Of a stretch of 12,238 nt of DNA, positions 713-12,238 are shown one piece after another. The DNA comes from Clostridia bacterium (lineage in GTDB: Bacteria; Bacillota; Clostridia; Christensenellales; Aristaeellaceae): assembly GCA_900754755.1 (NCBI GenBank), contig CAAEEC010000399.1, forward strand, positions 1 through 12,238, written 5' to 3'. Numbering within the stretch: the first letter of the stretch is position 1; each line of letters opens with the position of its first letter. The notes under the pieces were generated by a model, which worked only from the letters and a program-made list of their open reading frames with translations, was not told the DNA's origin and searched no databases. Made by a program: the position numbers and the translations under genes.

Positions 713-1744
713 TTATTTCCACATAAATGGGGGATAAACGTCCAGATCGCTGCGGATATAGCGGCTCATCAGCATTGCCTGGGCATGAGGCACAAGGCCC
801 CAGGGCAGCTTTTCCTTGAGGAATGGATGGGTAATCATCTCCTGCTTGCGCTTTTGCCAGGCAGCGAGGAAACGCTTTCGGGCATCGTCCGTCAAATAAA
901 ACGCGCCGTTTTCCTTTCGGGCAAAGTCGCTCTCGGTGATCGTACCCAGATTGATGAGCGATAAAACGAAGCGATCCGCAAACGGCGCGCGCAGTTCCTC
1001 GAGCAGATCCAGCGCGAGAGAGGCGCGGCCCGGGCGTAGCGCGTGCAGGAAGCCGACAGCGGGATCGAGTCCCACGGCTTCCAGCGCGCCGGCAATCTCA
1101 TGGCCCAGAATGCTGTATGTGAAGGAGAGCAGCGCATTCACTGGATCCAGCGGCGGGCGGCGGTTTCTGCCGTCGAAGCGGAAGTAGGCGGAATTTTTGA
1201 GGATCATCTGGTCGAACACGGAGAAATAGGCCTTTGCGGCAATGCCTTCCATCCCCATCAGTTCTTCTATGGAGACTGCGTTCATGAGATCGTCCAGCGC
1301 CTGCTTCATTTGCCCAATGGCGCCCTTCAGACGGTCCGCGTCTACGCGCAGAGCGTGATCGCGCAGTGTGCGCTCCAGGCTCCATCTGCCGTTAAAGATT
1401 TTGCCGGTTAGGAACATCTTGGCGATGGGCAGCGCGCCATCTTCGGTGCTGGCGACGCGATATTGCGCAGTGCGAAGCAGCACATTGCCGCTAACGGGCC
1501 CGGAAATACGCGCCAGAAACCGGCCATGCTGCGTCAAAAAGCACAGCCCAATGCCGCGCTCAGCGCACGCGCCCATGAGCCGCGGGCTCGCGCCGCGATA
1601 CCCAAAGCTGACGATGTTCTCCAGATTCAGCAGCGGCACGCGGCCCAGGCACTCGTCCTCATTCTGAATCACGATCGTCTCCCCATCCAGTGAAAGATAG
1701 GCCATCGGCGTGGTGACATAGAGCGTGTTTTGAAGCTTTCTCAC
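713..1744 (-). CDS. cas1: CRISPR integrase Cas1 (type I-C)
   Basis: A 343-residue protein of normal I-C Cas1 length. It begins with the beta-rich domain signature RKLQNTLYVTTPMAYLSLDGE and continues through GYRGASPRLMGACAERG. The C-terminal helical domain carries the metal-binding catalytic residues: Glu166 in GMEGIAAKAYF, His234 in GFLHALRPGR, and Asp246 followed by acidic residues in SLALDLLEELR. With Cas2 it integrates prespacers at the leader-repeat junction; in I-C systems it works with Cas4. The start codon is GTG (1742-1744), chosen because it aligns with the family start and has AGGAGG seven bases upstream. It overlaps the cas4 stop in a GTGA four-base overlap, so translation is likely coupled to cas4. 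Confidence 0.97.
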   Translation of the reverse strand: MRKLQNTLYVTTPMAYLSLDGETIVIQNEDECLGRVPLLNLENIVSFGYRGASPRLMGACAERGIGLCFLTQHGRFLARISGPVSGNVLLRTAQYRVASTEDGALPIAKMFLTGKIFNGRWSLERTLRDHALRVDADRLKGAIGQMKQALDDLMNAVSIEELMGMEGIAAKAYFSVFDQMILKNSAYFRFDGRNRRPPLDPVNALLSFTYSILGHEIAGALEAVGLDPAVGFLHALRPGRASLALDLLEELRAPFADRFVLSLINLGTITESDFARKENGAFYLTDDARKRFLAAWQKRKQEMITHPFLKEKLPWGLVPHAQAMLMSRYIRSDLDVYPPFMWK

Positions 1745-2415
1745 GGGCGGTCCTCCTCGCGCATCTGCCTTACATAGGCAGACGCGCTCATGCGTTTGGC
1801 CAGAAGCGGCTGACAGACTTCAACCAGGGAGCAACTTTTGCAGGCCTTCGTCCATTTGGCCTTTGGCGTATGCCCGCGCGCGAACAGACGGTGCATTTCC
1901 GCAATGGCTTCGGTCGTCATCCGCCGCAGTTCCGCGGTAAAGGCAACCGGAACGCGACGGCGGATCTTGCCGTAATAGATCGCGCCATCCGGAATATCGG
2001 TGACGAGCATTTCCTCCAGGCATAGGGCCTGGGCACACAGTTGCATCTCATCCGCGCCGCGCTCGTCGGGTTGACCATGCTTGTATTCGACGGGAAAGAC
2101 GCGCCACGTTCCGCTCCTTCCGTATATGGCGATGCCGTTTTCATCATGGCGCAGTTCTACGAGATCGCATTCGCCGGTGATGCGCAGCAGTTGTGAGCGT
2201 ACCGGCATGCCGCGCGAAAGCAATACGCTCCCGCGCGACTCGGTGAAATTCTCGTCATGCACGCGCTCATGGATCAGATGGCCGGAAACGGTCAGCGCAT
2301 TTTCCTGCCATTGCTGCTCGATGTGCACCAATGCCCAACGCCTCTGGCAGAAGCAGAAGTGCTTAATGCCGGAGAGCAGCAGGAAATCCGCATCACTCTC
2401 CATCGAGTTGCTCAT
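1741..2415 (-). CDS. cas4: CRISPR adaptation exonuclease Cas4 (type I-C)
   Basis: A RecB-family, iron-sulfur nuclease of about 224 residues that trims and PAM-selects prespacers for Cas1-Cas2. Using the ATG at 2413-2415, visible nuclease residues are His49 (LIHERVH), Asp84 (GECDLVE), Glu110 and Lys112 (PVEYKHG) and Gln125/Gln129 (EMQLCAQAL). The 4Fe-4S ligands are a Cys at 21 or 23 (HFCFCQRRW) and Cys192, 195 and 201 (CKSCSLVEVC). The frame stays open to an ATG at 2440-2442, but that would reach further into cas7. The 2415 start fits the family N-terminus and has GAGGG about ten bases upstream; a second ATG at 2401-2403 is also possible. Its 5' end overlaps cas7 by 23 bases and its stop overlaps cas1 by four. 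Confidence 0.95.
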   Translation of the reverse strand: MSNSMESDADFLLLSGIKHFCFCQRRWALVHIEQQWQENALTVSGHLIHERVHDENFTESRGSVLLSRGMPVRSQLLRITGECDLVELRHDENGIAIYGRSGTWRVFPVEYKHGQPDERGADEMQLCAQALCLEEMLVTDIPDGAIYYGKIRRRVPVAFTAELRRMTTEAIAEMHRLFARGHTPKAKWTKACKSCSLVEVCQPLLAKRMSASAYVRQMREEDRP

Positions 2416-3286
2416 AGGCGAGACCCTCAATGGCGCTCTCATCCACGGTCAGGATGGGCATTCCGTCCTCACCGGTGGTCACGTGCAGAGAGCGGTGTAC
2501 CCTGGCAGAGGAATACTGGCCGTTCGCGCAGTTGTGCGTCCACCAGACAAGCTGAACGACCTCCATGCTGCCATCCGGGCGGGCGGAGGTAGCGTCGTTG
2601 CGGAAAAGCGTGCGCAGCGCCTCCTGGATCGCCACGGCGTCCTCTTCGGTGAAGCCAGTCTTCTGTGCGGGTTGCACGTTGATGGAGCCAAACGTTTTAT
2701 ACACACCAAACTCCACGCGGTGCTTCATGCCCATCGTGTCGGCGGCTTTTTTATCGGGATCGTCGCCGGTTTCCAGATTGACCGACTTGGTGATCTGCGA
2801 ACTCACGATGTTCACGGGAGCAAGGCTGAAGGCAGGCTGAATGGTGACAGGCCCGCGAATGCCGATGGACAGCCCCTCCGCGTCACCGCCTTTCTTGAAG
2901 GAGAATACCTGACCGAAGGCGCGCACATCTATCCATGTTTTGCAGGCGATGGCCGCGTAGTCGTCGCGGGTTGGCACGGGCGCATCCTTGGTTTTCTTTT
3001 TGCTGGTGATGGCGTCCATACACGCCTTGAGTTCGGGGCAGGATTCGGCGCGCTCTTTCAGCGAGCGGCATTCGTCTATGCGGCGATCATCGGATTGAAC
3101 AAAGACGGCATATCCTGCGTCGAGCAGGCGATTGCGGATTTTTCGCTTTAGGCAAACGTCGGAGACTTCCCCCGTTCCGTCGTAAGTGGTGCGTGGGCGG
3201 TTGCCGTCCAGTGGATCTCCGTTGGGGTTGGCATTGCGGACGGTGAAGACGAGGGCGAAATCGATCTTGTGAGTCAATGTAGGCAT
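2393..3286 (-). CDS. cas7: Cascade backbone protein Cas7c (Csd2)
   Basis: A 297-residue Cas7-family RAMP protein, the normal length for Csd2. The signature NANPNGDPLDGNRPR lies at residues 18-32, right after the first beta strand. Seven copies normally polymerise along the crRNA spacer to form the I-C Cascade backbone. The ATG at 3284-3286 aligns with the family start (MPTLTHKIDF). The upstream sequence is A-rich but has only AGG some 16 bases away, a weak ribosome binding site for the most abundant subunit. The stronger AAAGGAG sits at the end of cas8c, about 35 bases upstream. There are 30 bases between the cas8c stop and this ATG, and both are in the same frame. The 3' end overlaps cas4. 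Confidence 0.97.
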   Translation of the reverse strand: MPTLTHKIDFALVFTVRNANPNGDPLDGNRPRTTYDGTGEVSDVCLKRKIRNRLLDAGYAVFVQSDDRRIDECRSLKERAESCPELKACMDAITSKKKTKDAPVPTRDDYAAIACKTWIDVRAFGQVFSFKKGGDAEGLSIGIRGPVTIQPAFSLAPVNIVSSQITKSVNLETGDDPDKKAADTMGMKHRVEFGVYKTFGSINVQPAQKTGFTEEDAVAIQEALRTLFRNDATSARPDGSMEVVQLVWWTHNCANGQYSSARVHRSLHVTTGEDGMPILTVDESAIEGLAYEQLDGE

Positions 3287-3316: not shown

Positions 3317-6040
3317 TCACGCGCTCCTTTCCTGTTTTTTGTTGGTTGGTTCAGCCGTGTAATACTCGTGCAGCCAACCAAAGGCAAGCGCTTCATCGCT
3401 ATCCCAGCCGTTTTCACGGATGGCGTGGTTGAGGGCGCTGACGCGCGCCTCGATGTTCTGCGCCCATCCATTACGCACACTGCGCAGCTTCTTGAGATAG
3501 GGCTGCATTCGCTCCTCAAGATAGCGCCATGTCGAGGCGGGTGCGGCGGCAAATTTGTTCATGAAGCGTATCGCGTTGCTCGTGCGGTTCTCCTCCTCGC
3601 GCTTTTCCAGATCGAGAACGCTGCGCTCAACATGGTTTTCGAGGGCGAGCAGCGAAGCGTAAGCCCTGTCGCGCGTCAAAGGCGCATCCGGTGCAGCGCG
3701 GTTCTCCCATTGGGCTTTTCCGCCGGAGAGCAGGCATGCGCGCATGCGATAAAAACCATGGAGGAAAAGGCTGCTCAACGGCGCGTTGTCAAGCCTTGCT
3801 TCGCGCTCAAATCCGCTCTCGATGCCTTGCAGCATAGCGATGGAGTAGGTACTTGCGCGAATGCCGAGCTTTTCCCAATGCGGCAGCAGCTTGGCGTGGA
3901 TCTCCGTCCACGCAACAGCGGGCTGCTGCGTGAGTTGCACCATCCCGCGCAGCGCAGCGGTATTGCCTTCATGCGCGGATACGGTGCGTTCCTCGCGCTT
4001 TTCGAGTGTGGCGTAGCGCTCCACATAGTCCGCGACGGCTGCCAGCATGCCAAAGCGCTCGCTGCGATCCGTGCCGAACCTGTAAGTCGCCTTGTCCTCC
4101 TCTTGCTGGTTCGAGGCGCTATGCCGCGTATAAAAATCCTGGCGCTGCGCGAGATAGCCCAGCAGAAAGCCCTCGCCGAGCGCGGCGGCGCTCTCCCTGT
4201 CCTCGCGCTCAAACAGCGATTCCACCTCAGCGATCGTGCGCATGAAGCCCTCCGCTTTGCTGTCGCTGCCCAGCGTGGCGAGATAGGGCAAGAGTTTGGC
4301 GTGCAGATGCAGCCATGTCTGCTTGGGAAGTTGAACAAAGCGCTGCGTCAGTCGAACGGCGTTCGTGGGCAGCGCGCGCCGGTCGGGGCGCTCTGTGGCC
4401 TCATATTCGGCCAAATCGGCCAGCGCGAGCAGGCGGCCGTAGAGGTAGTCGCGGTTTCGATTGTCTTTGTCCAGCCGGTCAGACGGAAGCTGCCCATCCA
4501 AATCCGCCCGCGCCTCCCGGGGCAGCGCGTCGAAACGGCTGCGGCGAATCAGCGCGCAGGCCGTGCGCATGCAGGTTTCCCATTCAGACCGCCGCCAGTT
4601 GCCTTCACGATCTTGAAAAGTGAGCGGAACTTCGGCGCGATGCACCGCGCTTTCGAGGAGGTTGCGCGGCAGGGCTGCGCCGTCCACAATACAGCTTAGC
4701 AATCGCTTATATAGCGCGCGCAGCTGTTTGGCGTCGCTCTTCTCGCACTTCGGGTCGGCCTTGGCGCGGCGGACAGCGCTCGTGCCCATGACGGCGTCGG
4801 CGATGGCCAGCGGCGCCGGCGTGCGCACGGCACATTTGTCGCTCGCCTTGTCCCAGTACGTCCAGCAACAAGAACGATACCAGTCGGTGAGCCGCTCGAC
4901 ATAGAGGTCGTCGGGCAGTTCCTGATAGTAGTCGATCGACATGCGGCCATCCGTGGCGGCCTCCATGCTCATGATGACGACGGACGAAGCCCGCTTCTCG
5001 CCATCCACCAGGTTGGCGATACAATCCTCGAAAGCCTTCGCCGTTCGTCCCCTTCCGCTTGCGGCCTCGCAGAGCGTTTGAGAATATTTTTCAAACGTAT
5101 CCGGCAGCGCTACGTTGTCCTCATCTTCCTCCTGGGCGGAATCGCTCTCGTTCAGCGGAACCGAAATGGCGCCCGTTTGAACGTCCCAGGCGACGATGTT
5201 CAGGCCGAGTTTCCGGAAGCTGAGTCCCTGATTGTCCATAAGATATTGCAGCGCGCGATGCGCGCGGCCAGAGGCATCGGCGCTGACCGTTGCGGCGCTG
5301 CGGTCTTCGACAAAGCGCCCTTTATACTGGAAGGGATAGCCTGCATCCTTGGCGGAGATCAGCTTTGCGTTGCCCTGCACCTTGGGATGGTTGTCCAGCG
5401 TGGGCAGCATTTCACCCGTCGCGTAGCACATCTCCGGTGTGCCGCCCTGTCTGCGCGCAAAGTAGGCGGCCCAGCTATCCTGCACATCCTTTCGCTTCCA
5501 CAAACGCATCTCGGGAGAAGTGGCGTCCTCCACGCTGAAACAGACCATCGCCTTGCCGTCTGGACCGTCGAAATCCTTCTCGCGTTCATTCTTGTGCAGC
5601 TTGAGCTTTTGGGGCAATTTGCTGTTCAGATCGTCCAGCAGTGTGCGCTTGCTCAGATAGGTCAGCAATGTGCGGAGGCATTCTGGCGCTTCGGGTTGAG
5701 CGCACCAGTCTGCGAGTTGAGCCAGATACCGGTCAAGCAGCGCGTTGTGGTCGCCTTCTTCCTCCACAAAATACTTGAGGTTTTCGGCCAGTGGAAAGGG
5801 CGCTCCATTTGCGCCGGTGCGCCCCTCCGCCTCCGGTGTCGTGGGCACGACGCATTCACAATCGTCTTTGCCCAGCACGCTGACGGAGGAAAACTCCCCA
5901 TCCGCCGCAACGGTGATCTCATAGCGAACCGCTTTCTTCGTAAATCCAACGCGGACAAGCTGGGTGCGATTGTTCTCTTCGGAAATGTCCACGCGGCTGA
6001 CCACGTCGTAGACGTCACAGAGTTTCTGTATCCAGCCCAT
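3317..6040 (-). CDS. cas8c: Cascade large subunit Cas8c (Csd1) with a triplicated Cas11c-like C-terminal domain
   Basis: Cas8c recognises the PAM and anchors the I-C Cascade. The ATG at 6038-6040 gives MGWIQKL, the family start, with AGGAGG about eleven bases upstream; the frame is open further upstream but that part overlaps cas5c. The product is 907 residues against about 600 for typical Csd1. Residues 1 to about 525 resemble a normal Cas8c body, with an acidic loop near 304-309. Residues 529-639 are the canonical C-terminal domain (DYLYGRLLAL ... FLLGYLAQRQDFYTR). Residues 659-768 and 789-896 repeat it in diverged form. Anchor residues recur in register: W576/W711/W838, P572/P707/P834, HAKLLP at 580-585 and 715-720, and E(S)xFERE at 607-613 and 741-747. 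This domain is what free Cas11c consists of in studied I-C systems. The stop TGA lies 30 bases before cas7. Confidence 0.95.
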   Translation of the reverse strand: MGWIQKLCDVYDVVSRVDISEENNRTQLVRVGFTKKAVRYEITVAADGEFSSVSVLGKDDCECVVPTTPEAEGRTGANGAPFPLAENLKYFVEEEGDHNALLDRYLAQLADWCAQPEAPECLRTLLTYLSKRTLLDDLNSKLPQKLKLHKNEREKDFDGPDGKAMVCFSVEDATSPEMRLWKRKDVQDSWAAYFARRQGGTPEMCYATGEMLPTLDNHPKVQGNAKLISAKDAGYPFQYKGRFVEDRSAATVSADASGRAHRALQYLMDNQGLSFRKLGLNIVAWDVQTGAISVPLNESDSAQEEDEDNVALPDTFEKYSQTLCEAASGRGRTAKAFEDCIANLVDGEKRASSVVIMSMEAATDGRMSIDYYQELPDDLYVERLTDWYRSCCWTYWDKASDKCAVRTPAPLAIADAVMGTSAVRRAKADPKCEKSDAKQLRALYKRLLSCIVDGAALPRNLLESAVHRAEVPLTFQDREGNWRRSEWETCMRTACALIRRSRFDALPREARADLDGQLPSDRLDKDNRNRDYLYGRLLALADLAEYEATERPDRRALPTNAVRLTQRFVQLPKQTWLHLHAKLLPYLATLGSDSKAEGFMRTIAEVESLFEREDRESAAALGEGFLLGYLAQRQDFYTRHSASNQQEEDKATYRFGTDRSERFGMLAAVADYVERYATLEKREERTVSAHEGNTAALRGMVQLTQQPAVAWTEIHAKLLPHWEKLGIRASTYSIAMLQGIESGFEREARLDNAPLSSLFLHGFYRMRACLLSGGKAQWENRAAPDAPLTRDRAYASLLALENHVERSVLDLEKREEENRTSNAIRFMNKFAAAPASTWRYLEERMQPYLKKLRSVRNGWAQNIEARVSALNHAIRENGWDSDEALAFGWLHEYYTAEPTNKKQERSA
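3353..3676 (-). other. Cas11c-like domain, copy 3 within cas8c
   Basis: Residues 789-896 of Cas8c, the most diverged copy. It retains AYASLLALENHVE at the start, NAIRFMNKF, P834 and W838 (PASTW), then QPYLKKL (846-852) in place of the LLPYLATL of copy 1, ending EALAFGWLHEYY. The offset from copy 2 is 127 residues by the aligned tryptophans. The duplicated regions account for nearly all of the roughly 300 residues by which this protein exceeds ordinary Cas8c. Confidence 0.72.
3737..4066 (-). other. Cas11c-like domain, copy 2 within cas8c
   Basis: Residues 659-768 of Cas8c. Aligned to copy 1 it keeps FGMLAAVADY at the start, MVQL, P707 and W711, the exact string HAKLLP (715-720), KLG, and GIESGFEREA (739-748), ending APLSSLFLHGFYRMR. 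The tryptophan-to-tryptophan offset from copy 1 is 135 residues. Similarity is at the protein level; the DNA is diverged, so the duplication is not recent. The linker before it contains AGAGGAGG (complement of 4096-4103) with no start codon at a usable distance. Confidence 0.8.
4124..4456 (-). other. Cas11c-like domain, copy 1 (canonical) within cas8c
   Basis: Residues 529-639 of Cas8c. It starts YLYGRLLAL and ends FLLGYLAQRQDFYTR, closely resembling the C-terminal region of ordinary Csd1 proteins. The core reads NAVRLTQRF, then P-x3-W (P572, W576), HAKLLP (580-585), and VESLFERE (606-613). A possible internal start for a free product is a TTG at 4499-4501 with GGGAGG (4513-4518 complement) eleven bases before it; no ATG here has a convincing ribosome binding site. 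Confidence 0.85.
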
Positions 6041-6815
6041 GGGCTGTATCCCCTCCTTCCTCTCGCAAGGATGCTTCGTCAAGCCCTGTAAAATTGCCAT
6101 ATTTGCCGCCAAAAGCCTTTGCCTTCATTTCTCGCACATCCTTGCGCATTGTGCAGTCCTGCGGCGCGCAGAACTTGATAACGCCATTCACCATTTTGGC
6201 CCGCCAGAAGCGCACGGCGAGCATGTCCCGCCCGGTCTCGTCCGGGTAGTCAAAACCGTGGAACATCACGCCGAAATCAACCTCTCCGCGATCCGCGTAG
6301 TAACTGCGCTTCTTTTCCTCGTCAAAGTCGCAGGGCTCAACATAGCCCTGGCACTCCCGCGTGCCCAGAAAGATGTCGCGCCGCCCTCCGCGCTGTATCA
6401 TGCGCCGGACGATGTTGTGGTGCTTGTGCTCGTTCTGGCCATCTGCGATCAGGTCGGGCTCGGTCCGATAAGGGTTGGCGATAAAATGTGCGCGCACGAG
6501 GTAGACAGGATCGACCAAATAGGTGTATACGGAGAGCGTGTTCTGCGGCTGCTCGTAGCTGATGGGGCGGATGTTTTTGGATTCCATGCGTATGGGATTC
6601 ATGACACAAACCTCGTCGATGATATGGCATATGCTCGGTTTCCAATGAAGGCTTTCCGTTATCCCCTTGAGCGCCTGATACGTCGGGATGGGGTAGCTGA
6701 GTTTCTCGCCGCCCATCCGCGTGATGGGATCGGAGAACAGGGCATAGCGGCCCCATACCTTGTAAACGAATTGGTTGCGAATCTTATCAACGGACAAATT
6801 TATCCCCTCTTTCAT
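6015..6815 (-). CDS. cas5c: crRNA-processing endoribonuclease Cas5c (Cas5d)
   Basis: A 266-residue RAMP protein. I-C systems lack Cas6, and Cas5c cuts the pre-crRNA at the base of the repeat hairpin, then stays bound to the 5' handle in Cascade. Residues equivalent to the Bacillus halodurans catalytic triad (Tyr46, Lys116, His117) are seen as Tyr46 in YPIPTYQALKG and Lys131-His132 in NEHKHH. Other signatures are VWGRYALFSDPITR, GGRRDIFLGTRECQGYVEPC and FGVMFHGFDYPDE. The ATG at 6813-6815 has AAGAGG six bases upstream and fits the family start; a TTG at 6795-6797 with AGGGG is an alternative. The frame is open to 6926, but that extension lies in the regulatory region. The 3' end overlaps cas8c by 26 bases. 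Confidence 0.95.
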   Translation of the reverse strand: MKEGINLSVDKIRNQFVYKVWGRYALFSDPITRMGGEKLSYPIPTYQALKGITESLHWKPSICHIIDEVCVMNPIRMESKNIRPISYEQPQNTLSVYTYLVDPVYLVRAHFIANPYRTEPDLIADGQNEHKHHNIVRRMIQRGGRRDIFLGTRECQGYVEPCDFDEEKKRSYYADRGEVDFGVMFHGFDYPDETGRDMLAVRFWRAKMVNGVIKFCAPQDCTMRKDVREMKAKAFGGKYGNFTGLDEASLREEGGDTAHGLDTETL

Positions 6816-6825
6816 CGAATGCCTC

Positions 6826-6855
6826 TTGTTTATCAAGCGAAGAACGTGGTATACT
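6826..6855 (+). promoter_or_regulatory. Promoter of the repeat-like small RNA
   Basis: On the plus strand TTGTTT (6826-6831) and TATACT (6850-6855) are 18 bases apart, and TGG directly before the -10 makes it an extended -10 promoter. Transcription would start near 6862, just upstream of the repeat-like hairpin and antisense to the 5' untranslated region of cas5c. The hexamers overlap the segment just upstream of the cas5c start codon. Confidence 0.55.
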
Positions 6856-6899
6856 GAATCCGTCATGCGCAGCCGCCTGGCGTGCATGTGGATTGAAAA

Positions 6900-6935
6900 G
6901 CAATGGGGAGCAATGGTATACCGCAATGGTATACG
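6900..6935 (+). repeat. Tandem GCAATGG elements in the pseudo-spacer
   Basis: GCAATGG occurs three times on the plus strand (6900-6906, 6910-6916, 6923-6929). The last two are part of adjacent 13-base units GCAATGGTATACC and GCAATGGTATACG. GGTATACC (6915-6922) is palindromic. The stretch could be the guide part of the small RNA, binding sites for a regulator of the cas promoter, or both. Confidence 0.7.
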
Positions 6936-7041: not shown

Positions 7042-9429
7042 TTATACAATCATCGAGTCGAGTTCGCGGCCCACGGCGGTCAGTCCCCGTTCGGCGTCAT
7101 AGTATTCCGGCTTCAAGGCCATGACGCCCGTGTCTCCCACGGCATAAACCGCACCTTCCTCTTCCAGCCGCTTCATCATGGAATCGTACACATTGACGCT
7201 GTACTGCTGCGCCCGGGCAAGCAGTAGGGTGCGTTGCTTGATCTCGGACTGACTGAGCAAAGCGTTGATGATGGCTGCGCCCTCGCCGTAGGGCACGATG
7301 ACGGCGCGCGTGTCCTCGTCGATCACGCGGAAGGTCTCGCCCGCCGTGCGGAAGGCCTGCTTAAGCGGAAACAGATCTTTCGTGCCATTGGCAAAAGCCT
7401 TGTTTACGCTCAACAGATCAACGAGATTGCCATTTTCGCAGGGGTACTTCTCCGCCTTTTTCGTATAGCTTTGTTCCTCGCCAAAATATCGATAAATGCC
7501 GCTCGGCTTGCACAGCGCCTCAAAGTTCTCCGGGGCTTCGTGATACAGCTTGCGCGTACAACTCTTGCCGTTTTCAATTTCCGCCAGGTTCTTGAGAGCT
7601 TCTTCCTGAAACTCCCATATGTATACATTCCCGCTTTCGCGCTCCATGTTGCGGTTGCAGCGGCCGCCCGCTTGCACAATGCTCGGGATGCCTGCCAGGC
7701 TGCGCACGACGGCCGGGAAGCTGATGTTGATGCCCGCCTCGATCAGCGTCGTGGAAACGCAAAGCGCGCGTCCGCCGCCCTCGAGCCACGCTTTCATGAA
7801 GTCGATGTACGCAAGGCGGTGTTTGGGGCACAGCAGCGTGCTCAGATGGATGCAGAGCACGTCATCCGCCTCTGCGGCTTTTGCCTGCCTTATGACGGCT
7901 TCTCTATCCAGTGTACAGTCGATAGCGACAGGCCGCACCCCCTGTTCCTTTAGGAGGTCTACGGTGTGCCGATAGACTTCCCAGGCAACGGCCTTTGTGT
8001 TGACGACGACCAGCACGCTGCCCTGTAAACACATCAGGTTTTGCAGCTTGCGGGCCGCGTCTTCATTTGTCAGGCTCGTGCTAAGCTCAGGGATCCATCG
8101 TACACGGGTGAGCACGTCATAGAGCTGGGCAAGTTCCTTCTCATCGCCCATCAGTTCGTTATCGTCGGGCATGACGAGATTCGCAAACTCCATTTGCGTC
8201 GCCGTGCACAGCAGCACCGTACAGCCGCAATTGCGCACAAGAAAGTTGACCGCGCGTTCAAAGAGCACCCTGCACTTGCTCGGCAGCGCCTGAATTTCAT
8301 CGAAGACAATCACCGAGCGCATCAGCCGGTGCATGCGGCGCGCGTTTGTATTCTCGCAGCGATAAAGCGCGTTGAGAAACTGCACCATACTGGTCAGAAT
8401 CATGTGGCTATCCCAGCGCTCCGTCAGGCGCCGGTACTGCATCCGCTCGCCTTCATCCTCCACAACAACGTTGGCGTGGTGCTCGAGGATGCTGCCATAC
8501 CCACCCAGCGCCGCGCGAATGTCTCGCGCGTTCTGGTCGAGAATGGTGTTGAATGGAATGACATAGAAGATGCGCGCCATACCGTGACGCGCGGCGTGCC
8601 CGAGAGCAAAGCGTAGGCTCGAAAGCGTCTTGCCGCCTCCGGTAGGCACCGTAAGTCGATACACGCCCGGCATGCGCGCAGCTGCCTCCCCGCATCGCGC
8701 GGCAATCTTGGCGCGGATTTGGTCAATTGGCGTTTTGATCGCAAAGTGTGCGTCCATATATGCGTCCAATCGCCTTAGAAGCTCGTCCCAAGCAGGCTCA
8801 GGCGGCTGTGCAAAAGGATCCTCGCCATATTCAAAGCAGGCCGCATCATAACGGTCGGCATCCACGAGCATGCTTAGCAGCAGCCGCGCAGTCAATCCAT
8901 CGCAAAAAGCGCCTATTTTCCCTTTGGCGCGAAATTGATTCAGTTCTTTGCACGCGTCAGCGAACAGAGCGTCGAGCTTTGGGAGAAAAGCGACGTTTTC
9001 CGTAAAATATGCGACGGCTTCATTATAGTGCAGTTCACGATTATCCAACTGCATTTTCTGGAGAAAAGACGGTTCCGATCTTTTGTTTACACAATCCATC
9101 AGCCCTGTGTGGTGACCGTATACGCACAGGGCAATGATCTGCGCAGCGCGCCTGCGCGTTTCATCGCCGGAAAACCAGCGCTCATAGGCGAAAATTGCGC
9201 CCGCAGGGGCATGGAAGTGCGTCTTTTTCTTCTCGTCTTCAGTGAGGTATGCCTGAAACAGCGGCGTACCCTTGCCCATATCATGTACAAGAGCGATTAG
9301 CCGCGCGGTTTGAGCAAGGCAAAGCGGTGCAGCAAATCGCGCACTGAGTTCTGCGACGTTTTCAACGTGTTCTGTCATCGATTGCGTGCGTCCGCTTTTC
9401 TGATCAACATGGGCTATATAAGGCTGCAT
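7042..9429 (-). CDS. cas3: CRISPR-associated helicase-nuclease Cas3 (type I-C)
   Basis: A 795-residue Cas3 with an N-terminal HD nuclease domain and a C-terminal superfamily 2 helicase, recruited by target-bound Cascade to unwind and degrade DNA 3' to 5'. HD-domain metal ligands visible are His21, His49-Asp50 (LVHDMGKGTPLFQAYL), His73 (HAPAG), His106-His107 (YGHHTG) and Asp190 (LVDADR). Helicase motifs are Walker A PTGGGKT (262-268), DEIQ (377-380), CTATQ (408-412) and QAGGRCNR (586-593). All motifs look intact. The ATG at 9427-9429 has AAAGGAG five to six bases upstream. It is first in the locus and separated from cas5c by 226 bases that carry an independent promoter, so cas3 is probably controlled separately. 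Confidence 0.97.
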   Translation of the reverse strand: MQPYIAHVDQKSGRTQSMTEHVENVAELSARFAAPLCLAQTARLIALVHDMGKGTPLFQAYLTEDEKKKTHFHAPAGAIFAYERWFSGDETRRRAAQIIALCVYGHHTGLMDCVNKRSEPSFLQKMQLDNRELHYNEAVAYFTENVAFLPKLDALFADACKELNQFRAKGKIGAFCDGLTARLLLSMLVDADRYDAACFEYGEDPFAQPPEPAWDELLRRLDAYMDAHFAIKTPIDQIRAKIAARCGEAAARMPGVYRLTVPTGGGKTLSSLRFALGHAARHGMARIFYVIPFNTILDQNARDIRAALGGYGSILEHHANVVVEDEGERMQYRRLTERWDSHMILTSMVQFLNALYRCENTNARRMHRLMRSVIVFDEIQALPSKCRVLFERAVNFLVRNCGCTVLLCTATQMEFANLVMPDDNELMGDEKELAQLYDVLTRVRWIPELSTSLTNEDAARKLQNLMCLQGSVLVVVNTKAVAWEVYRHTVDLLKEQGVRPVAIDCTLDREAVIRQAKAAEADDVLCIHLSTLLCPKHRLAYIDFMKAWLEGGGRALCVSTTLIEAGINISFPAVVRSLAGIPSIVQAGGRCNRNMERESGNVYIWEFQEEALKNLAEIENGKSCTRKLYHEAPENFEALCKPSGIYRYFGEEQSYTKKAEKYPCENGNLVDLLSVNKAFANGTKDLFPLKQAFRTAGETFRVIDEDTRAVIVPYGEGAAIINALLSQSEIKQRTLLLARAQQYSVNVYDSMMKRLEEEGAVYAVGDTGVMALKPEYYDAERGLTAVGRELDSMIV

Positions 9430-10008: not shown

Positions 10009-10037
10009 TTGCAAAAGGGACGAATTCGGATTATACT
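10009..10037 (+). promoter_or_regulatory. Promoter of the MATE exporter gene
   Basis: TTGCAA (10009-10014) and TATACT (10032-10037) are 17 bases apart, with start near 10044 and a leader of about 60 bases before the ATG at 10103. CCCTT (10006-10010) and AAGGG (10015-10019) form a small dyad over the -35 element. It is divergent from the promoter at 9900-9928. Confidence 0.6.
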
Positions 10038-10058
10038 GCAAACAATACGAATTCGGAT
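10020..10058 (+). promoter_or_regulatory. Paired operator-like repeats over the MATE promoter
   Basis: ACGAATTCGGAT occurs at 10020-10031 and again exactly at 10047-10058, 27 bases apart. Each copy contains the palindrome CGAATTCG. One copy lies in the spacer directly before the -10 hexamer and the other just after the predicted start, a placement expected for repressor sites. No regulator gene lies within the window. Confidence 0.55.
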
Positions 10059-10102: not shown

Positions 10103-11482
10103 ATGAACACGCACAGCCTGTTTGCCAAGACGCCGCCCGTGCGCCTATTTTTCACCGCCGCCATTCCCGGAGCCATTAGCATGTTGGCTTCCGCGCTATA
10201 TCAGTTGATTGACGGCGTATTTGTGGGGCGGATCCTGGGCGAGACTGCGTTTGCGGCGCTGAATTTGAGCATGCCATTCGTGATCATCAATTTCGCGCTG
10301 GCGGATCTGATCGGCGTGGGCTCGTCCGTGCCCATATCCATCAGCCTGGGCCAAAAACGAGATGCCGCTGCCAACAACATCTTTTCCTGCGCTTGTGCCA
10401 TGATTGTAGGCGCGGGCGTAGCCGTGGGCGCGCTTTTGTATGCCGCCGCGCCGCTGCTCATCGCGCTGATGGGCGCCAGCGGCCAATTTGCTGAACTGGC
10501 TGTGGCCTATCTGCGCGTATACGCGCTATGTTCCCCGGTGACGACCATTGTGTTCGCCATGGACAATTACCTGCGCATCTGTGGCAAGGTGCGCGGCAGC
10601 ATGCTGCTCAACATTCTAATGTCCGTCCTCAGCGCCGCTTTGGAATTTTTGTTTTTGTTTGTGCTGGACCTGGGCATCATCGGCGCGGCGCTGGGCACCT
10701 GCTCCGGTATGATCCTCTGCGCGCTGATCGCCTTCTTCGCCTTCACGCGCGGCAAGATGCAATTGCGCTTTTGCCGCCCACGCTTCCGCCTTTCCATGGT
10801 GCGGGAAATCGTGGCCTGCGGCACGCCGAACTTTCTGAACAACATCGCGGGCCGCGTGACTTCCATCGTGATGAACATGCTGCTGGTGCGCCTGGGCGGC
10901 GAATCGGCGGTTTCGATCTATGGCATTTTGATGTATGTAGAGGGGTTCATCCAGCCCTTGCTCTATGGCATGTGCGATTCCCTGCAGCCCGCGGTGGGCT
11001 ACAACTGGGGCGCGGGCCGGCTCGATCGAGTGAAGGCCATCGAACGCTGCTGCTTCGTTTCCAGCGCGATTCTTTCGCTGCTGTCAGTGGCGGTAATCGC
11101 CCTTTTGCCCGAGCCGATTACCGTGTTGTTCATGGGAGAGACGAACCATACCTTCCTCACAGAGGCGGTTTTCGCATTGAAGCTCTTCAGCCTCACCTAC
11201 ATCACACGCTGGTATTCGTTCGCCGTGCAGAGCTATATGCTGGCCGTGGAAAAGCCCGGAAGCGCTTCCATCATTTCCGTCAGCACGGCGCTGGTGTTCC
11301 CGCTCTTGCTGCTGGCCGCGCTCTATCCGCTGGGGCTGACGGGCATCTGGCTGAATTTTGCGCTCACCGCCGTGCTGGCCGGGATTCTGGCCATCATCGT
11401 GATGGCGCGCTTTTCCCGCAAGCTGCGCGCGGGCATACCGCCGCACGCCGGGCACGATCTCGATGTGAGCGAGATGGACTGA
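10103..11482 (+). CDS. MATE-family multidrug/cation efflux transporter
   Basis: A 459-residue, strongly hydrophobic protein with about twelve membrane segments in two six-helix halves, the usual size for MATE transporters (MepA-like group common in Clostridia). Family features include IPGAISMLASALYQLIDGVFVGR (residues 21-43) in the first helix, GVGSSVPISISLGQ (71-84), and QPAVGYNWGAG (295-305), the equivalent of the conserved QPxxGYNYGAG in the second half. It would export drugs or metabolites in exchange for sodium or protons; the substrate cannot be told. The ATG at 10103-10105 has AGAGG eight bases upstream. It is monocistronic, has its own regulated-looking promoter, and ends in a strong terminator. 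It has no evident tie to the CRISPR locus. Confidence 0.93.
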   Translation: MNTHSLFAKTPPVRLFFTAAIPGAISMLASALYQLIDGVFVGRILGETAFAALNLSMPFVIINFALADLIGVGSSVPISISLGQKRDAAANNIFSCACAMIVGAGVAVGALLYAAAPLLIALMGASGQFAELAVAYLRVYALCSPVTTIVFAMDNYLRICGKVRGSMLLNILMSVLSAALEFLFLFVLDLGIIGAALGTCSGMILCALIAFFAFTRGKMQLRFCRPRFRLSMVREIVACGTPNFLNNIAGRVTSIVMNMLLVRLGGESAVSIYGILMYVEGFIQPLLYGMCDSLQPAVGYNWGAGRLDRVKAIERCCFVSSAILSLLSVAVIALLPEPITVLFMGETNHTFLTEAVFALKLFSLTYITRWYSFAVQSYMLAVEKPGSASIISVSTALVFPLLLLAALYPLGLTGIWLNFALTAVLAGILAIIVMARFSRKLRAGIPPHAGHDLDVSEMD

Positions 11483-11491
11483 GCAACCAAC

Positions 11492-11529
11492 GGGCGGGCC
11501 GAAAAAGCAAATCGGCCCGCCCATTTTTT
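11492..11529 (+). terminator. Intrinsic terminator of the MATE gene
   Basis: GGGCGGGCCGA (11492-11502) and TCGGCCCGCCC (11512-11522) form an 11-base perfect stem with a 9-base A-rich loop, followed by A and six T (11524-11529). It begins ten bases after the MATE stop. The T tract overlaps the stop codon of the convergent aminotransferase gene by two bases; on the minus strand there is no U tract after the stem. Confidence 0.92.
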
Positions 11530-12238
11530 ATCCCCGAATTTCCGGATGCCGCGCGGCGACCACGCCAAAGGCGTCATCCGCGATATCGACGGCCAAGGCG
11601 ATGTCCGCCTCGGTCATGGCGGCGTTCATGAAGTGGTTGTGATGGCTGGCGAGGAACAGGCCGCGCGAAACGCATTCGGCGACCCATTCCTGGTGCAGCA
11701 TCAGGCTATCGTCGTTGGCGATGCGCAGGTAGAACAGCGCCGGTTCGCCGGAAACCACCAAATCGAAGCCGTGCGCCCGGGCCGCGGCCTGAAACCCCTG
11801 CGTGAGCTTTTCGCCCATGCGCCGGAAGAGGCTGGGCGTATCGAGCCGCTTCATCTTATCGATACAGGCGATGCAGGCGGCGAATGGTTCCGCGCTCATC
11901 CAGTACGAACCGGTGAACGAAAGCGAGGCGGCCGTGGCTTTGAGCGGCTCGCGCCCGCACACGGCGGACAGGTTATAGCCATTGGCCAGCGCCTTGCAGA
12001 AACAAATCAGATCGGCTTTGAAACCATAATAGTGATCGGAACCGGCCAGATCCAGCCGGAAGCCCGCGCGCACGTCGTCCAGGATCAGCAGCATATGGTG
12101 CTTGTCGCAAAAGGCGCGCACCTGCTGCCAATATTCGGGGGAAGCCACGCGGTTGTCGAAGAAGTTCCCGTGGTCGTAGGGCTGGGCGATCAGCGCCGCC
12201 ACGTCGCCCTTGCACTGGTCGTAGGCCGCTTCCATGGC
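11528..12238 (-). CDS. Class III PLP-dependent aminotransferase, C-terminal part (partial)
   Basis: The visible 236 residues are the C-terminal half of a fold-type I class III aminotransferase; the gene continues past the right edge, and the ATG at 12233-12235 is internal. Family marks are LLILDDVRAGFR, whose Asp contacts the PLP ring nitrogen, and DLICFCKALANGYNLSAVCGREP, whose Lys (codon at 11993-11995) should form the Schiff base. FTGSYWMSAEPFAA, then NHFMNAAMTEADIALAVDIADDAF, follow. It resembles glutamate-1-semialdehyde aminomutase-like enzymes used in diverse metabolism; the substrate is unknown. It converges with the MATE gene and no functional link to the CRISPR locus is evident. Confidence 0.88.
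   Translation of the reverse strand, partial: AMEAAYDQCKGDVAALIAQPYDHGNFFDNRVASPEYWQQVRAFCDKHHMLLILDDVRAGFRLDLAGSDHYYGFKADLICFCKALANGYNLSAVCGREPLKATAASLSFTGSYWMSAEPFAACIACIDKMKRLDTPSLFRRMGEKLTQGFQAAARAHGFDLVVSGEPALFYLRIANDDSLMLHQEWVAECVSRGLFLASHHNHFMNAAMTEADIALAVDIADDAFGVVAARHPEIRG

Follow-up and report, generated by a model that had tools for sequence, protein, structure and literature searches.

The window analysed here, the whole stretch of 12,238 nucleotides (nt) at positions 1 to 12,238 of contig CAAEEC010000399.1 from a Clostridia bacterium of the Aristaeellaceae (assembly GCA_900754755.1), carries a CRISPR-Cas system that by its genes is a member of type I-C. Its cas8c (csd1) gene encodes a protein with three tandem Cas11c-type domains, and the codon aligned with the internal Cas11c start of single-copy relatives is not a start codon. 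We consider it probable that one Cas8c polypeptide of this kind fills all three minor filament positions of the I-C Cascade. The parts of the gene are as follows.

3317..6040, minus strand: open reading frame of cas8c (csd1), 907 amino acids (aa), three Cas11c-type domains
4481..6040, minus strand: Cas8c body, residues 1-520, the model of which matches Cas8c chains of solved I-C Cascades
4499..4501, minus strand: TTG (Leu 514), preceded by GGAGG at a distance of 11 nt; no other start-like site lies near copy 1 in the window
4478..4480, minus strand: codon 521 (GAC, Asp), at the place where single-copy relatives have the internal Cas11c start codon
4115..4462, minus strand: first Cas11c-type domain (copy 1), residues 527-642, corresponding to the tail of a normal Cas8c
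3725..4075, minus strand: copy 2, residues 656-772
3332..3685, minus strand: copy 3, residues 786-903

The I-C complex of Desulfovibrio vulgaris studied by O'Brien et al. contains seven copies of Cas7, two small subunits and one each of Cas8c and Cas5c (PMC7684278), in agreement with the one Cas8c plus two Cas11c assumed by the original prediction, which had been made from the sequence of the window. The small subunits there correspond to Cas8c residues 489-612, and an internal ribosome-binding site in cas8c is credited to an earlier report (PMC7684278). Likewise, the window system encodes Cas5c, Cas7 and a Cas8c with a C-terminal Cas11c-type domain, and, as there, three such domains per complex would be expected; in D. 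vulgaris (PDB 7KHA) two of the three are free Cas11c, whereas in the window all three lie in one chain lacking the aligned start codon.

The window Cas8c matches Pfam Cas_Csd1 at 4e-99 and TIGR01863 at 295.5 bits (cut-off 218.65), in both the Pfam and the NCBIfam search in three stretches. The tandem repeat proposed by the original prediction was confirmed by several comparisons. Segments 521-660, 656-790 and 786-907 reach pairwise local scores of 120, 113 and 76, where the highest values in 500 shuffles per pair were 49, 49 and 63, and copies 1, 2 and 3 each match the last 110 positions of Cas_Csd1 on their own (2.4e-17, 1.3e-6 and 5.3e-11). Comparison of profiles built from 37 three-copy proteins (hhalign) is significant for all three pairs of copies, with E-values of 1.2e-40 (1-2), 6.5e-27 (1-3) and 1.2e-26 (2-3) and probabilities of 100%, 99.7% and 99.7%, and all three copies reach 99.8-100% against the corresponding domain of 78 ordinary, single-domain Cas8c proteins. 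The length of 907 residues and the aligned tryptophans at 576, 711 and 838 were as predicted. The motifs quoted for all three segments (HAKLLP, ESxFERE and a GY/GF end) hold for copies 1 and 2 only, copy 3 having RMQPYLKKL instead, and LHEYYT at its end. The description of three segments after a normal body is right in their number, but only two copies are extra, the first segment being the Cas11-like tail that a Cas8c ordinarily has.

All three copies are predicted to fold as Cas11c bundles. In the models, copies 1 and 2 match the Cas11c helical bundle, as the original prediction would have it. Copy 3, the most divergent of the three and with a short last helix, shows the same helix order and the profile match given above. 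A Foldseek search with the model of copies 2 and 3 gave no hit with E < 0.001 (best 0.009), and four of five Cas11c chains were returned at probability 1.00. When the whole protein, or copy 2 or 3 alone, was searched by sequence against solved structures, no Cas11 was returned; only the profile of 37 proteins found it. In a separate observation, 190 residues of the model of copies 2 and 3 align at 3.8 Å to Cas8c residues 395-608 (8dfo_I and kin), as though the helices ahead of the Cas11c domain had a Cas11-like character of their own and a similar placement.

The clearest difference between single-copy and three-copy genes lies at the internal start. The first residues (1 or 2) of solved Cas11c chains align at window Cas8c 520-522, with 521 the codon in question. 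This codon lies nine codons ahead of the Arg of RDYLYG and, with the frameshifted L067 excluded, is a start codon in every one of 67 single-copy loci, preceded by a Shine-Dalgarno (SD) match of at least 4 bases in 67/67 and at least 5 bases in 60/67. After 89 loci from genome searches were added, the exact codon was a start in 136 of 139 distinct single-copy loci with a Cas8c body (L110, L137 and L141, whose frames have no body, are excluded from the extended counts). L090, L108 and L109, at first taken for exceptions, each have a start with an SD a few codons away. Within 17 codons at the domain head, all 141 single-copy loci, now including L067 and L123, carry a start with an SD, and selection for free Cas11c is thus visible as such a site. 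In L067, from a Clostridiales genome bin, the cas8c frame is broken inside the Cas11c domain region, and L123, an apparent two-copy locus with intact start, proved to hold one copy split by an insertion.

Three-copy loci present the opposite picture. None of the first 13 has a start codon at the aligned place of copy 1, and none of 14 once the count is extended, window and L150 included; the codon is GAC in the window, CCA in L009, ATC in L010 and ATT in L150. The same 17 codons hold a start with an SD of 4, 5 or 6 bases in 3, 1 and 0 of the 14 loci, where background stretches of the same genes give 7, 1 and 0% (13, 4 and 1% in single-copy genes). At the matching place of copy 2 a start codon occurs in 2 of 13 loci, without an SD of 5 bases. 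L012, L014 and L015, the closest single-copy relatives of the three-copy clade, all retain the site. At the protein level, M, V or L occupies the start place in 247/247 single-copy against 7/92 three-copy proteins. The window itself has no canonical internal start with SD at the head of the Cas11c domain.

The family was surveyed with three protein searches, from which the best 120 of 1094, 4800 and 5866 matches were taken. This yielded 342 Cas8c proteins, with the one from the window and a 99% copy of it among them; 247 are single-copy and 92 three-copy, three carry two copies and none carries four. These counts are not frequencies because the queries were multi-copy proteins. The search for other long Csd1 proteins suggested by the original prediction thus revealed a family. 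Three copies are not obligatory, since P0043 (790 aa) and P0122 (784 aa) have two, with Arg at the aligned start of copy 1; the third two-copy protein, P0025, looks like a truncated three-copy protein. In a genome scan, 12 of the best 80 loci among 488 confirmed relatives are three-copy. Genome samples, in which three-copy genes were judged from frame length and, for fetched loci, domain count, gave 35 matches in 397 genomes of the [Clostridium] symbiosum family (two three-copy), 20 in 396 of the order of L001 (one) and 40 in 398 of the class of L021 (one, L150). Two deposited strains are among the carriers: [Clostridium] symbiosum ATCC 14940, whose locus has all seven cas genes and 58 repeats, and Lactonifactor longoviformis DSM 17459. 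Two three-copy proteins (P0034, P0039) are named just Cas8c/Csd1 in NCBI records. Long frames of 922-937 aa in G1480, G1352 and G1263 turned out to be single-copy frames of 639-648 aa, two with GTG behind AAGGAGG at the exact codon and the third with Met one codon on; G1480 and G1263 stand outside the 141 single-copy loci. No frame longer than 679 aa was found among 13 matching genomes in a sample of 294 genomes of one phylum, searched for a relative of lineage B with DNA. A search for cas8c in plasmids, one for copies 2 and 3 in phages and one for phage matches to the L009 array were all negative.

In 87 full-length three-copy proteins the linkers have medians of 17 and 15 residues (ranges 9-56 and 10-40). 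The arrays of the window and of nine further three-copy loci have spacers of mostly 33-36 nt, as do the 38 single-copy loci with a detected array. A common core is 92-100% conserved in each copy of 39 main-clade proteins: R530/659/790, E545/674/805, A561/696/823, P572/707/834, W576/711/838, P585/720/847 and L621/755/885. The YLYGR motif of single-copy proteins is kept in copy 1 of the main clade and mostly replaced by FG in copy 2, and copy 3 has an altered end. This drift would fit seats with different neighbours.

Three-copy Cas8c appears to have arisen more than once. A tree of the body without repeats places 31 of 32 three-copy rows in one clade with support 99; additional three-copy proteins found afterwards fall outside it. 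One group of 17 three-copy rows against 20 single-copy rows, hand-picked after the later three-copy proteins had been placed and with groups defined by copy number, was rejected by the approximately unbiased test (p-AU 2e-35). In a tree of single domains (81 hand-picked rows), copies 2 and copies 3 of the main clade each form their own group, all 12 copies from P0041 and its kin (lineage A) cluster with one another (97/89), and the three copies of P0123 do so (100/92) inside single-copy rows. The copies of L150 are 68-73% identical to one another and share no more than 53% identity with any domain in the set of 342 proteins, which probably marks a recent, separate triplication in which the start codon also changed. 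As judged from these trees, a single origin is rejected and at least three independent triplications are likely. Further lineages may add more, although the rows behind B, C, E (P0236) and F are few or long. Separate origins could also be blurred if copies were lost or underwent gene conversion with each other.

The proposal that one chain fills three seats follows from the count of three together with start loss at the exact place, and from the repeated origin, the constant spacer length and the failure to find a separate small-subunit gene close by. The interpretation given in the original prediction is supported. In such a complex the Cas8c body would sit at the Cas5c and protospacer-adjacent motif (PAM) end, copies 1, 2 and 3 would dock one after another on the Cas7 backbone, joined by linkers of about 15-17 residues, which could plausibly span neighbouring seats, and the three would jointly hold the displaced DNA strand. 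Copy number would be set by the gene and not by the balance of full-length and internal translation, and each copy would be free to specialise for its place. We lean, by a small degree, towards the wider view that I-C systems have repeatedly exchanged a translational for a gene-encoded number of small subunits, after which the internal start dies, the three filament positions, which elsewhere share one sequence, evolve separately and specialise by position, and copy 3 becomes a dedicated end piece.

Several observations weigh against this account, and many of them would suit an ordinary complex in which the long chain still yields free Cas11c, whether by initiation inside the gene at a non-canonical site (TTG, ATT, or an ATG ahead of copy 3) or by linker proteolysis, or in which a second locus supplies it. 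The TTG of the window lies 7 codons before the lost start site, in L010 (Candidatus Faeciplasma pullistercoris) copy 3 is headed by an ATG 8 nt downstream of GGAGG, a free third-copy Cas11c being possible from there, and L004 has an ATG with AAGGA at copy 3. Weak GTG sites occur near copy 1 in L007 and L009, and in L150 the aligned ATT stands behind a weak AAGG. ATT is a rare start codon. At the protein level, the three-copy protein P0251 (936 aa) retains Met at the start place (YEMKLN) and is perhaps an intermediate still making a free three-domain piece, and 6 further three-copy proteins of the 92 have L or V there. The genome bin of L007, G406, has a further, divergent Csd1 as a possible source of Cas11c: its Csd1 genes lie on contigs C54 (L172) and C60, one being three-copy (frame of 891 aa) and the other, of 721 aa, having a single tail that is very divergent and scores 12 bits to the Cas11c profile. 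Yet these candidate sites lie at differing places and near the background rate, 11 of 14 three-copy loci have no site near copy 1 even at 4 SD bases, and the TTG of the window is probably chance; in the other 13 three-copy loci no start with an SD of at least 5 bases was found near copy 1. Given, in addition, the invariable site of the single-copy loci, no other Cas11-like frame in any of the 13 three-copy loci checked (window included) and no Cas_Csd1 match outside the three-copy gene in six of seven three-copy whole genomes, we regard a continued supply of free Cas11c as unlikely. Against the proposal also stand points on other grounds: copy 3 alone has no structure match to any Cas11c chain, the two-copy proteins P0043 and P0122 exist, and in the domain tree the copies within P0240, P0124 and P0251 (lineages B, C and F) fail to cluster by lineage. 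There is kinship among the single-copy loci and likewise among the three-copy loci, which Fisher values for the start counts disregard; three-copy loci with DNA represent two lineages only, with two separate start losses seen, so the 14 start losses are not 14 events.

The extra copies might instead serve another purpose, such as a longer filament, a surface for Cas3 or avoidance of anti-CRISPR proteins, with one copy in the usual place. Copies 2 and 3 have indeed drifted at positions fixed in single-copy proteins, for example in the YLYGR motif, but all three retain the core of R, E, A, P-x3-W, P and L, copy number never exceeds three among the 342 proteins, spacer length is unchanged, and a free small subunit for the remaining places was not found in any of the 13 loci; such a role is decidedly improbable. 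An error of assembly or gene prediction, for which no supporting point was found, is scarcely credible in view of 92 three-copy proteins with identity to the window's down to 27% and of three-copy genes in both deposited strain genomes. The reading we favour remains one chain in three seats.

The remaining genes of the operon lie on the minus strand in the order cas3, cas5c, cas8c, cas7c, cas4, cas1 and cas2, followed by the edge of the array.

7042..9429, minus strand: cas3; HD domain TIGR01596 95.9 bits, above its cut-off, helicase core TIGR01587 90.4 bits, below its cut-off of 102.45
6015..6926, minus strand: open frame of cas5c, TIGR01876 224.2 bits, above cut-off; the true start is probably inside the frame, the family match running from residue 54-56 onward
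2393..3286, minus strand: cas7c (csd2), TIGR02589 303.3 bits, above cut-off
1741..2442, minus strand: cas4, TIGR00372 115.8 bits
713..1744, minus strand: cas1c, TIGR03640 478.2 bits
406..696, minus strand: cas2, TIGR01573 58.7 bits
1..235, no strand given: CRISPR array edge, 4 repeats of 32 nt, spacers 34-36 nt

Type I-C systems have their crRNA processed by Cas5c. No Cas6 family match was found among the seven cas frames scanned, in a window that covers only one array end, and no Rfam or tRNA match was found in the window. Outside the operon, two 22-nt direct repeats, 82% alike and with starts 27 nt apart (10010-10058), sit just upstream of a MATE-family gene (10103-11482; MatE 9.8e-26) and are a possible regulator site. 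A partial class-III aminotransferase gene (Aminotran_3 1.9e-18) lies at the edge (11528-12235, minus strand).

Other systems share single features of this arrangement. In types I-B and I-D the small subunit is likewise encoded within the large-subunit gene, but the free subunits come from internal translation, and the accessible parts of the sources mention no tandem copies (PMC7684278; PMC11899642). Type III-E Cas7-11 (gRAMP) also fuses effector subunits, Cas11 included, in one chain; it joins four Cas7-like domains and one Cas11-like domain (PMC11127173), whereas in the window only the minor filament would be fused, one domain being triplicated. Cascade gene fusions are further represented by the I-F1-related Cas8-HNH systems, with cas8 sometimes fused to cas11, and by a Cas8-Cas5 fusion in an incomplete I-C system without Cas3, both without mention of tandem small subunits in the accessible part of the source (PMC10910872). 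No description of tandem Cas11 copies within Cas8c was found in titles and abstracts of the open literature, subscription papers and preprints being mostly outside the search, and this absence is not proof that the arrangement is undescribed. To judge from the sequences, three-copy Cas8c appears to be a new variant within type I-C.

The family would make testable how one gene provides Cascade with exactly two free small subunits for every large subunit, a number that evolution appears to have hard-wired several times, with at most three copies in every protein seen. It would test whether a separate Cas11 matters for its own sake or only for three seats, and show which residues are important at each seat. 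Missing internally translated Cas11 is a known obstacle in genome editing, for which the arrangement suggests a Cascade with fewer parts and a fixed composition.
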